A stretch of DNA of 64,000 bases from Edaphobacter sp. (GTDB lineage: Bacteria > Acidobacteriota > Terriglobia > Terriglobales > Acidobacteriaceae), in the NCBI RefSeq assembly GCF_028283685.1, contig NZ_JAPWKF010000007.1, forward strand, positions 372,001 to 436,000, read 5' to 3'. Position 1 is the stretch's first letter. The number at the start of each line of letters is the position of its first letter. A program made the position numbers and the translations under genes. Of the stretch, positions 10,350-33,659 are shown piece by piece. The notes below the pieces were generated by a model. It was not told the DNA's origin. It did no database searches and was given only the letters and a program-made list of their open reading frames with translations.

Positions 10350-10729
10350 CCAGATCCGTTTCGATAGACTCCCTATGATCGCTTACAACACACAATCGAT
10401 TCAGCGCCCGGAACCAATCATTTAGAGGGTGATAAACGTCGAAACGCAAGTGTATGACAAATCTTGCAGGCCTCGCAAAAACCTTGATGCAGACCCTCCC
10501 GCTGCCTGGAATCCATAAGAAGATTGCCGTCGTTTGTTATAGACATCTCCTTATCTAAGAATGTTCCACGCGCTCGATCATAGGGCGCGGACCGTGATCT
10601 GCACCTTTGTGCACGCACAAAGGTGCACCGACAGGCATCGGAAACCGGCCACGAAGTATCCCTGGAGAGACACGGCTATTCTATTCCGTGACGGATCCAC
10701 ACAAATGGTCAACAATATCAGAGGTTTAG
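10350..10729. other. Intergenic stretch between sigma-factor gene and tRNA-Arg
   Basis: About 380 bases without a convincing gene. It must carry the promoter of the sigma gene and holds the long perfect inverted repeat at 10600-10627. A short minus-strand frame (10543-10418, starting with MSITNDGNLL and holding CEACKICH) is possible, but it lacks proper ribosome-binding spacing. Confidence 0.5.
10600..10627. promoter_or_regulatory. Perfect 13-bp inverted repeat with 2-base centre
   Basis: TGCACCTTTGTGC-AC-GCACAAAGGTGCA is a perfect inverted repeat. It lies about 250 bp upstream of the sigma gene and 103 bp beyond the 3' end of nothing on either strand, so it is not an obvious terminator. No T-run follows on either side. 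It could be an operator or a cruciform. Confidence 0.4.
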
Positions 10730-10806
10730 TGGTGGCCCGGGCAGGAGTCCAACCTGCGACCTTCGCGTTAGGAGTGCGCTGCTCTATGCAACTGAGCTAC
10801 CGGGCC
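10730..10806 (-). tRNA. tRNA-Arg (anticodon CCT)
   Basis: Cloverleaf on the minus strand. The acceptor stem pairs GGCCCGG (10806-10800) with CCGGGCC (10740-10734), with discriminator A and an encoded CCA (10732-10730). The D arm is GCTC-AGTTGCATA-GAGC; the anticodon loop is CTCCTAA, giving CCT for the AGG codon, on a stem closed by an A-C mismatch; the T arm is GCAGG-TTGGACT-CCTGC. G18, U55, G15 and C48 are as expected. However, position 19 is C instead of G and position 56 is G instead of C, a matched swap of the tertiary 19-56 pair that joins the D and T loops. Confidence 0.92.
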
Positions 10807-10869
10807 ATAGCCTCAGTGTATCGCGTCCTTCGACCGCCCTCGAATGGTAAACTTTAAGGTGGAGAGTTT

Positions 10870-12102
<1,233 letters not shown>

Positions 12103-31577: not shown

Positions 31578-33659
31578 CTACATGCGCTCGGGAGCCTCGA
31601 TGCCGAGGTAGCCCAGGGCGCGGGTCATCTCTCTTTGCGCCGTTGCTGCGGTGGCCAGGTAGAGGGTCTTCTTTGTGGCGTCCTCTTCGTTGAGGATGTG
31701 GTGGCGGTGGTAGAAGTTGTTGAACTGCTGCGCGAGCTGGAAGGCGTACTTGGCTAAGTAGGCGGGCTCGGAGGTGGCGATGGCCTGCTCGATGAGGGTG
31801 GTGAGACGCGAGGTGAGCAGCCAGGTCTCCCACAGCGTCGTGCCCTCTTCGGAGTTGAGGATGGGGGCGATGTCGAGCGTGGGCATCGCGGCCAATGCGG
31901 CCTCGGCGGTGGTGCCTGCCTTGCGGAAGATGTTGGCGGCGCGCACGATGGCGTACTGCACGTAGGGGCCGGTCTCGCCTTCGAAGCTGAGGGCATCCTT
32001 GAAGTCGAAGGCGATGACGGTGTTGCGGGTGTAGCGCAGCATGAAGTAGCGCAGCGCGCCGACGGCGATCTGTTTGGAGATGGTGGCGCGGTCGTCGTCG
32101 GAGAGGTCGGGGTGACGGTTGTCGACCTCGGTGCGGGCGGCGGTGGTGAGGCGGTCGATGAGGTCGTCGGCCTTGACGCCGAAGCCCTTGCGGCCGGAGA
32201 CCTCGATGTAGGCGCGCTTCTGGTCCTCTTCGCTGACATCGTAGCCGAGGTCGAGGGCGCAGCGCGGGGTGAGGGCGACCATCTCGTAGGAGAAGTGGGT
32301 GTAGCGGTCGGCCTCATTGGTGAAGCCCATGCCGCGGAGGGCGGCGATGACGTTGTTCTGCGGGTCGTTCTGGCGCGAATCGATCACGTTATAGATGGCG
32401 TCGGCGTGTCCGAAGGCGGGGGCGTGTTCGTCGCTGGGGCTATCGGTGGAGATCCAGCACATGTGGTTGGGGTACTGGTGGAACTTCGTGTAGCCGAAGT
32501 CCTTGCCGGGAAGGAGGCCGAACTTCCAGAGGTGGTAGGCGATGTCCTTGCCGACGTAGGTGACGGTGCCGTTGGAGCGGACGATGACCTTGGCGTCCTC
32601 GTCGGGGCCGGTCTCGGCTGCCTCAGCGTTGGTGGTTGCGCTGGCATCCTGCGAAGAGATGCGGGGGTTCCTCGACTCCGCTTCGCTTCGCTCGGAATGA
32701 CGAGGCTCAGCAGAGGCGCGGCGCATGACCCAGCAGCCCTTGTTCTTGCCCTCGGTCTCGAGGTAGAGGACGCCTTTTTCGATCATGAGCTGGCGGGCGG
32801 CGTCCCAGAAGTGGAGATGGAGGATCTCGCTCTCGCGGGGGAGGAAGTCGTACTCGATGCCGAGGCGCTGCATGGTCTCGAGGTGGCGGTGGAGGACGGC
32901 GGTGGCGATGAGGTCGGCTACTTCGGCGATCTCGTTGCCACCTTGCTCGAGGGCGTGGAGGGTGGCGAGGCGGAGGGCCTTGCGCTCGGCGGCCTGATCG
33001 GGGTCGGCGGTGTACCACTGCGAGACGCGGGCGTAGAGGTCCCAGCAGTAGTAGTCGATGCGCTTGCCCTGGGCAGCGAGGTCGGCGACGAGGGTCTGCA
33101 CGGTGTCGAGACCGAGGTTTTCGAGGTGCATGAGGCCGACGACGACATCGGCGACCTGGACGCCGGTGTTGTCGATGTAGTTCTGCACGCCGACCTGGTA
33201 GCCGTGCTTGTAGGTATCGGGGCGCAGGAGGCGCTGGAAGGTGTCGCCGAGGATGGCGTTGCGCAGGTGGCCGATGTGGGCGGCCTTGTTGGGGTTGATG
33301 CTGGTGTGCTCGATGAGGCGGAAGCCGGGGCCGCCGATGGGGGCGTGCCGGTCGGCGGCGATGTGGCGGGCGACCCAGGCGCGATCGAGGCGGATGTTGA
33401 GGTAGCCGGCGCCTGCGATCTCGACGGAGGCGACGCCCTCGGGGAGCTGCGCGGAGAGCTCGGCGGCCAGTTCGGTGGCGATGGCGCGGGGAGCCTTGCG
33501 GAGACGCTTGGCGAGCTCGAAGGCGACGGGAAGGGCGAGTTCGCCCATGGCGATGGAGGGCGGCTGCTCGACGGCGAGGCTCGCGAGGGTGACGTCGTAC
33601 TTCGAGGCGAGGATGGCCTGAATGGCGGCCGTGAGCGACTGCTGGATTGTGCGATACAT
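31578..33659 (-). CDS. argS: Arginyl-tRNA synthetase
   Basis: A 693-residue class I synthetase that charges tRNA-Arg. The N-terminal Add1 domain begins MYRTIQQSLTAAIQAILASK. HIGH is at residues 128-131 in NPNKAAHIGHLRNA; the KMSKS loop is degenerate (GRKGFGVKADD), as is common in ArgRS. The C-terminal DALR domain binds the anticodon. The frame extends to 33806, but the extra N-terminus translates a dispersed repeat, so ATG 33659 is chosen. Residues about 319-338 (HSERSEAESRNPRISSQDA) come from a repeat inserted in frame just before VIVRSNGTVTYVGKDIAYHL. All other motifs look intact. Confidence 0.95.
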   Translation of the reverse strand: MYRTIQQSLTAAIQAILASKYDVTLASLAVEQPPSIAMGELALPVAFELAKRLRKAPRAIATELAAELSAQLPEGVASVEIAGAGYLNIRLDRAWVARHIAADRHAPIGGPGFRLIEHTSINPNKAAHIGHLRNAILGDTFQRLLRPDTYKHGYQVGVQNYIDNTGVQVADVVVGLMHLENLGLDTVQTLVADLAAQGKRIDYYCWDLYARVSQWYTADPDQAAERKALRLATLHALEQGGNEIAEVADLIATAVLHRHLETMQRLGIEYDFLPRESEILHLHFWDAARQLMIEKGVLYLETEGKNKGCWVMRRASAEPRHSERSEAESRNPRISSQDASATTNAEAAETGPDEDAKVIVRSNGTVTYVGKDIAYHLWKFGLLPGKDFGYTKFHQYPNHMCWISTDSPSDEHAPAFGHADAIYNVIDSRQNDPQNNVIAALRGMGFTNEADRYTHFSYEMVALTPRCALDLGYDVSEEDQKRAYIEVSGRKGFGVKADDLIDRLTTAARTEVDNRHPDLSDDDRATISKQIAVGALRYFMLRYTRNTVIAFDFKDALSFEGETGPYVQYAIVRAANIFRKAGTTAEAALAAMPTLDIAPILNSEEGTTLWETWLLTSRLTTLIEQAIATSEPAYLAKYAFQLAQQFNNFYHRHHILNEEDATKKTLYLATAATAQREMTRALGYLGIEAPERM
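32645..32701. repeat. Dispersed repeat inserted in frame in argS
   Basis: CATCCTGCGAAGAGATGCGG through CTTCGCTCGGAATGAC, matching the copies at 31250-31295 and 31496-31542. Its 57 bases equal 19 codons, so the reading frame of argS is kept. Confidence 0.85.

Follow-up and report, generated by a model that had tools for sequence, protein, structure and literature searches.

The pair between positions 19 and 56 at the tRNA elbow is of the Watson-Crick type, and the ribosome, RNase P and T-box RNAs all make use of its exposed face (PMC4810234). Its usual form, G19-C56, has been called invariant (PMC6337575). According to a review of the T loop, C56 determines the 2-thiolation of m5U54, and R57 stacks beside G19-C56 (PMC7912444). 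In a review of tRNA identity, G19-C56 figures in leucine identity, A20 and C35 are the main bacterial arginine determinants, and A/G73 also belongs to the bacterial arginine rule (PMC9976931).

Among described systems, tRNA-Pyl and some mitochondrial tRNAs depart from the G18 G19 / T psi C pattern (PMC7609411), as does the tRNA-Arg(CCT) studied here. In the former the contact between the D and T loops is lost or rebuilt, whereas in the latter it is kept with a reversed Watson-Crick pair, C19-G56. This reversal is notable: the usual pair is regarded as invariant (PMC6337575), and its exposed face is a contact surface for the ribosome, RNase P, and further RNAs and proteins (PMC4810234). No description of C19-G56 was found in the literature searched, by a search that misses most subscription papers and the compilation tables of rare 19-56 pairs. 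In comparison with canonical tRNA-Arg(CCU) (e.g., L044, L046 and L402), the tRNA has in common the cloverleaf, the CCU anticodon, A20, G18-U55, G53-C61 and the encoded CCA; it differs in presenting C19-G56 instead of G19-C56, and an A31-C39 mismatch instead of U31-A39.

The tRNA gene, its locus and its host genome

Two tools place a tRNA with anticodon CCT on the minus strand of the window (i.e., the whole stretch of 64,000 nucleotides analysed): ARAGORN at 10730-10806, and Rfam model RF00005 at 10733-10806, with a score of 56.5 bits against a cut-off of 29. Together, the covariance score and the CCU anticodon are as expected of an elongator tRNA-Arg(CCU). The coordinates of the features are presented in Table 1.

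Table 1. Features of the tRNA-Arg(CCT) locus and related genes in the window.
Feature	Position	Strand	Basis or remark
tRNA-Arg(CCT), 77 nt with encoded CCA	10730..10806	-	ARAGORN; RF00005 56.5 bits
Position 19: C, not G	10788	-	Direct reading; constant in all full-length close genus copies
Position 56: G, not C	10750	-	Direct reading; constant in full-length close genus copies and 24/24 partial copies
Anticodon CCU (positions 34-36)	10770..10772	-	ARAGORN
Anticodon arm, mismatches G27-A43 and A31-C39	10763..10779	-	Direct reading
tRNA 3' part (gene bases 27-77), the segment of relatives' partial copies	10730..10780	-	
TACACT, -10-like hexamer, 8 nt upstream of the tRNA	10815..10820	-	16 aligned loci
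ispG, divergent neighbour	10870..12102	+	TIGR00612 385 bits
argS, sole arginyl-tRNA synthetase gene found in the assembly	31581..33647	-	TIGR00456 above cut-off

Numbered by the usual scheme, with one extra base 20a, the D loop reads directly as A14 G15 U16 U17 G18 C19 A20 U20a A21, and the T loop as U54 U55 G56 G57 A58 C59 U60. The preliminary description had reported C at 19 and G at 56, with G18-U55 and G15-C48 kept. The direct reading, ARAGORN and RF00005 confirm the former, and as to the latter G18 and U55 are present while G15 and C48 are able to pair. C19 and G56 are complementary, i.e., the 19-56 pair is Watson-Crick without being G19-C56. Also normal are G53-C61, U54/A58, A20, C35, A73 and the encoded CCA, and the bacterial arginine identity set (A20, C35, A/G73) is complete with A20, C35 and A73.

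The anticodon stem is weak: it lacks the full 5 bp, given that G27-A43 and A31-C39 are unpaired. The 27-43 mismatch is also found in relatives with the normal elbow pair (e.g., L046 and L049), and in many copies from genus g32 A31-G39 replaces A31-C39. About 100 nt beyond the 3' end of the tRNA, at 10600-10627, the window contains a perfect 13 bp inverted repeat with a spacer of 2 bases and without a T run.

The tRNA gene and ispG are arranged head to head with 63 bp between them. An ispG homologue was present at 78 of the 121 loci examined, which are a mixture including distant relatives, islands, and several genomes twice. Given that a normal G19-C56 tRNA-Arg(CCT) of a sister genus (L044) also lies beside ispG, the swap arose at, or was brought into, an old tRNA-Arg(CCT) position. 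The ispG of G066 is near the tRNA but on the opposite side; no ispG was found in the 19-20 kb fetched of G269, which is swapped, and of G117, which is normal and belongs to the genus of G066. Within the genus of the window, IspG differs by up to about 13% from the window's. The -10-like hexamer TACACT is exact in 12 of the 16 aligned loci and differs by a single base in the other 4, and a consensus promoter scan upstream of the window tRNA reported nothing.

The host assembly has 4.79 Mb in 10 contigs and is 93.5% complete, and the 45 tRNA genes found in it were all read. The window gene is the sole one with a CCT anticodon, and the only one of the 45 that failed a T-loop and D-region check. 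For the other 44 the check is a loose one, as it accepts any gene with GG in the D region and TTCGA or TTCAA in its 3' part. The preliminary description had proposed looking in this genome for another tRNA reading AGG. A second, normal CCT tRNA was not among the 45 genes; a CCT gene may have been missed, given the 93.5% completeness and the lack of a tRNA-Phe among the genes read. The search for another AGG reader did yield one, tRNA-Arg(UCU) (L015). As AGG is readable by this tRNA, the window's CCU tRNA is probably redundant for that codon. Besides CCT, the arginine tRNAs of the genome have anticodons TCT (the UCU tRNA just named), TCG and ACG, so that one of four is swapped. In the 29 long ORFs of the window, AGG occurs at 3.9 and AGA at 2.3 per 1000 codons. 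Although PF00750 matches are weak, TIGR00456 identifies a single argS, and a missing or second ArgRS was rejected.

Extent of C19-G56 in the order and use of the gene by integrases

Searching the family for close matches (i.e., 92-100% identity over the whole gene) returned 13 in 150 genomes, the host's own included, and all 13 have C19-G56. Within the genus, a full-length close copy was found in 55 of 60 genomes (own included), and 55 of 55 have C19-G56; 45 of them are 100% identical over 77 nt, and each of the ten variants was read. As for the remainder, the gene is cut at contig ends in G162 and G184, only a partial copy exists in G164, G166 (74% complete) presents only a 73% match to gene bases 4-77, and G203 (83% complete) is without any match.

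In the order, counts cover tRNAs with a GCTC/GAGC D stem, which all the 19-56 patterns demand. C19-G56 was found in 87 of 347 genomes and 5 of 77 genera, all rows being tRNA-Arg(CCT): 50 of 53 genomes in g1, 15 of 17 in g32, 20 of 23 in g64, 1 of 5 in g66, and one genome of g9. The family search adds genus g67. A search for CCT tRNAs whose position 56 is A, C or T matched 187 of 347 genomes and 69 of 77 genera, but none of the 87 swapped genomes; every row among the matches listed has G19-C56. Neither CCT pattern matched in 73 of the 347 genomes. Such patterns pass over tRNAs with a different D stem or with a TTCAA T loop, as in L044. The mismatched G19-G56 was found in 0 of 338 genomes of the order. 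Among clade variants, the acceptor and T stems change in compensating pairs (GCAGG/CCTGC, GCCGG/CCGGC and GGCAG/CTGCC), and 19-56 stays C-G.

C19-G56 is, hence, a real covariation, fixed in a clade and not restricted to one genome. The preliminary description had read the joint change as covariation and not as two errors, and had suggested asking whether it is fixed among relatives; the 55 of 55 full-length close genus copies answer the latter and, together with the 87 genomes of the order and the 0 of 338 with G19-G56, uphold the former. Sequencing error is ruled out by fixation across species.

Two genomes, G066 and G269, are swapped although their genus mates carry normal genes. In G269 (genus g9) the clade tRNA is found letter for letter on contig 232 (L400), which has 20 kb and no ispG, and no pattern match to a normal CCT gene was obtained in this genome. 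Its copy is possibly an import or, given the short contig, possibly a product of misbinning. By eye, locus L053 suggested a possible remoulding from tRNA-Lys(TTT).

tRNA genes are a well-known class of attachment sites for integrases. Partial copies of the gene studied here are present in many genomes of the genus, mostly extending from base 27-32 to the gene end. All 24 partial copies read have G56 (BLAST, short and decayed copies included), considering that they were recovered by likeness to a G56 query and that L096 is possibly a gene cut by a contig end. A PF00589 tyrosine recombinase was identified in 5 of the 5 proteins tested, each adjoining a partial copy; these were picked by motif and position, and L099, L110 and L112 had no motif candidate. 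In addition, the distal flank in G034 (L098) corresponds to the flank after the tRNA in G158 (L067), with 86% identity over 434 nt, and the distal flank in G150 (L111) corresponds to G194 (L108), with 81% over 228 nt, as expected of empty sites. A third distal flank, in L099, had no match, i.e., two of three flanks were matched.

By these partial copies, integrases and empty sites, the gene is an attachment site (attB) for integrases in relatives, a use that, like the anticodon-stem mismatches, the preliminary description does not mention. With other tRNA attachment sites it has in common the truncated 3' copies, the adjoining PF00589 integrases and the empty-site relatives; it differs from the usual ones in that the attachment segment has G56, for which only a host half with C19 offers a partner. 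Exchange of the 3' half alone cannot bring C19, as the partial copies do not extend to it. At the window's own gene no island or partial copy was found, and only one match is present in its genome. The intact gene of G150 has T stem GGCAG and the displaced copy GCAGG, and the empty-site relative L108 also has GGCAG.

Further integrase candidates, at motif level, were seen in L401, L404 and L406. Extra repeats of the last 19-21 tRNA bases occur tens of bases past the gene or partial copy (L112:2784-2804, L113:19032-19052 and L095:1079-1097), and similar short terminal repeats are near the genes of G155, G172, G186 and G161.

Exchanges of the 19-56 pair in the phylum and in viral contigs

Over the phylum, the C19-G56 pattern was matched in 36 of 396 genomes, always in tRNA-Arg(CCT): 30 are in the host's own family, and six in families f23 and f12 outside the class. 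The anticodon stems of these six are normally paired. The elbow swap had been put forward as a feature of the window's tRNA, and it is real there; it is not unique to it, given that it recurs in viral tRNA-Arg and in these two other families.

A or U at both positions 19 and 56 was found in 12 of 327 genomes, all in family f23. Eight of them (G502, G530, G545, G558, G592, G599, G627 and G656) have a tRNA-Arg(TCG) with A19-U56, and three f23 genomes have a tRNA-Arg(CCT) with U19-A56, G545 presenting both. In G649 the pair A19-U56 is in a redundant tRNA-Thr(CGT), and in G443 a tRNA-Val within a dense tRNA array matched the A/U pattern. On contig 9 of G443 (L629), this tRNA-Val is followed over about 1.5 kb by eight more tRNAs, several of them with TTTGA T loops.

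For genome G545 the reading covered 36 of 43 tRNA genes. Among its five arginine tRNAs, A19-U56 is found in TCG and U19-A56 in CCT; the other tRNAs read have TTCRA T loops. The codons of its two swapped tRNAs are readable by other isoacceptors present there (TCT, CCG and ACG). Its tRNA-Lys(CTT), tRNA-Thr(CGT) and tRNA-Val(CAC), which resemble them in the type of D stem and in having a partner with U34, present the normal pair.

When IMG/VR was scanned with patterns of matching geometry, C19-G56 was found in 51 stretches, G19-G56 in 3, C19-C56 in 46, G19-C56 in at least 120, U19-A56 in 99, and A19-U56 in at least 120. Covariation of positions 19 and 56 yields a Fisher p of 3e-19 on stretches (at least 120, 3, 46 and 51), with relatedness ignored. 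In 38 of the 41 distinct C19-C56 tRNAs position 20 is G, and this G20 may take over from G19 as the partner of C56. Without the G20 cases p is 3e-31 (at least 120, 3, then 3 and 40), a value which mixes stretches with distinct tRNAs and ignores relatedness. These 38, from viral loci L321-L366, have a D loop with G18 C19 G20 and a normal C56. At L197 (C19-G56) and at one G19-G56 locus, ARAGORN gave no matching tRNA.

The altered viral tRNAs are mostly tRNA-Arg. Considering distinct tRNAs, the arginine share is 29/40 for C19-G56, 60/73 for U19-A56 and, among the matches listed, 65/115 for A19-U56, compared with 48/132 among the matches listed for the G19-C56 control. After clustering at 85%, the shares are 20/31 for C-G, 37/49 for U-A and 45/88 for A-U versus 34/104 for the G-C control (the last two among the matches listed), and the enrichment has Fisher p of 0.002, 6e-7 and 0.007, respectively (A-U and control among the matches listed), on the two uncertain assumptions that clusters are independent and that the listed control matches are a fair sample. 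Taken by itself, CCT shows enrichment in C-G (p 0.006) and U-A (p 0.01), and not in A-U (p 0.91, among the matches listed).

tRNA-Arg(CCT) accounts for 12 of the 52 swapped viral C19-G56 tRNAs. At least two of them are identical to bacterial genes letter for letter, L158 being the clade variant of L105 and L193 the gene of L370; these two may therefore be host DNA, and the same may hold for some of the "viral" contigs. Without the two host-like clusters, arginine accounts for 18/29 of the C-G set, with a p of 0.004 (control among the matches listed).

The window's tRNA has in common with the tRNAs of altered 19-56 in viral contigs and arrays (IMG/VR L150-L200 and L407-L624; betaproteobacterial L061) a compensated change, and the viral sets are mostly tRNA-Arg; it differs in that its gene is chromosomal and fixed throughout a clade. 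In L061:2735-4329 (MEQX01000015.1, a Betaproteobacteria MAG) a dense array contains 15 predicted tRNAs, several of them odd, including a tRNA-Ala(TGC) with C19-G56.

Every other Watson-Crick kind of 19-56 pair recurs in tRNA-Arg, in viral contigs and in other families of the phylum, and we consider this wider exchange the more interesting part of the results. The clade-wide reversed pair and the viral variants suggest that, at least in tRNA-Arg, it is the pairing that is held and not the letters. The reversed tRNAs are natural variants with which enzymes that read these letters, and the reasons why arginine tRNAs change, may be probed.

Origin and maintenance of the reversed pair

On balance we consider it probable that the gene encodes a functional, redundant elongator tRNA that reads AGG, and that a compensated double transversion was fixed in it within the clade, where Watson-Crick pairing now maintains it. 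As AGG is a rare codon for which tRNA-Arg(UCU) can substitute, losing the 19-56 pair for a short time would have cost little. A second change would then have restored the pairing, the double change would have been fixed in the clade ancestor, and thereafter selection would keep Watson-Crick pairing at 19-56 rather than its orientation. Judging by the published identity rules, ArgRS should be able to charge the swapped tRNA, since it has the main determinants A20, C35 and A73. The preliminary description had proposed, as a further possibility, that RNase P, T-loop modifying enzymes or EF-Tu could read the changed elbow differently. Integrating elements may help hold the swapped state, as they would return a 3' half with G56 that fits the host's C19, although this does not account for C19 itself.

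In favour of a compensated change, the gene is intact, is kept over many species, and adjoins ispG as does the normal gene of the sister genus, and a mismatched 19-56 pair was not found in the clade. Nevertheless, the order yielded no intermediate with a mismatch either, so in-place substitution is a step we infer. Redundancy alone does not account for the arginine bias, given the normal tRNA-Lys(CTT), tRNA-Thr(CGT) and tRNA-Val(CAC) of G545. All the C19-G56 matches of the order and phylum are CCT, yet the redundant tRNA-Thr(CGT) of G649 has A19-U56. The conserved A31-C39 and G27-A43, which leave the anticodon stem weak, and the negative consensus promoter scan at the window tRNA also speak against this reading.

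The main rival, which we hold to be rather unlikely, is that a phage or integrative element imported the swapped tRNA, in whole or in part, already with C19-G56, and that it replaced the normal gene. Viral contigs do carry such tRNA-Arg(CCT) genes (the 12 of 52), but two of these 12, L158 and L193, are possibly host DNA, being the same as bacterial genes. The gene is an attachment site in relatives, with integrases beside partial 3' copies that have G56 in 24 of 24, but an exchange of 3' halves would be insufficient, given that C19 is outside these copies. G066 and G269 are swapped in contrast to their normal genus mates, the latter without ispG on the 20 kb fetched, but the copy of G269 is on a short contig and may be misbinned. 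Most genes of the clade, moreover, adjoin ispG as the normal gene of L044 does. In line with import, the window tRNA is identical to viral L155 at 64 of 77 positions, no fewer than the 63 of 77 shared with the normal L044 and L046; origin from a known phage or plasmid tRNA was rejected, as no match of at least 90% to the window tRNA was found.

Also unlikely, and more doubtful than import, is a general version in which the outer elbow pair of tRNA-Arg acts as an evolutionary switch: the four Watson-Crick versions of 19-56 recur, and clear mismatches are rare, in viruses of prokaryotes and in this bacterial phylum, and an elbow reader would reward new letters as long as the pairing is unchanged. 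The candidate readers we propose are a defence nuclease, a modifying enzyme, or ArgRS through the neighbouring A20.

Compared with these, it seems improbable that the swap itself was selected in order to evade or retune an elbow reader specific to tRNA-Arg, such as a nuclease or modifying enzyme. The arginine excess among swapped viral tRNAs (p 0.002, 6e-7 and 0.007 on 85% clusters, A-U and control among the matches listed) would fit such a reader, as would the fact that swapped cellular cases are nearly all arginine tRNAs, but the A-U set shows no excess of CCT itself (p 0.91, among the matches listed). Colicin D cuts tRNA-Arg near 38/39; however, only one of the four arginine tRNAs of the host is swapped, and a toxin acting on tRNA-Arg at large would still hit the rest. 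Phage tRNAs are reported to evade tRNA-targeting defences by means of changes in the anticodon loop (PMC10264068), a paper whose accessible parts make no mention of the D loop, T loop, T arm or elbow. Our analysis did not connect the swap with any enzyme or defence gene.

Least probable of all is a gene in decay, or one retained mainly as an attachment site and not for translation, as the A31-C39 and G27-A43 mismatches, the UCU redundancy and the attachment use in relatives might suggest, given that 45 of the 55 genus copies are identical over 77 nt while IspG differs by up to about 13%, that stem changes are compensated, and that the -10-like hexamer is exact in 12/16 loci and one base off in 4/16.
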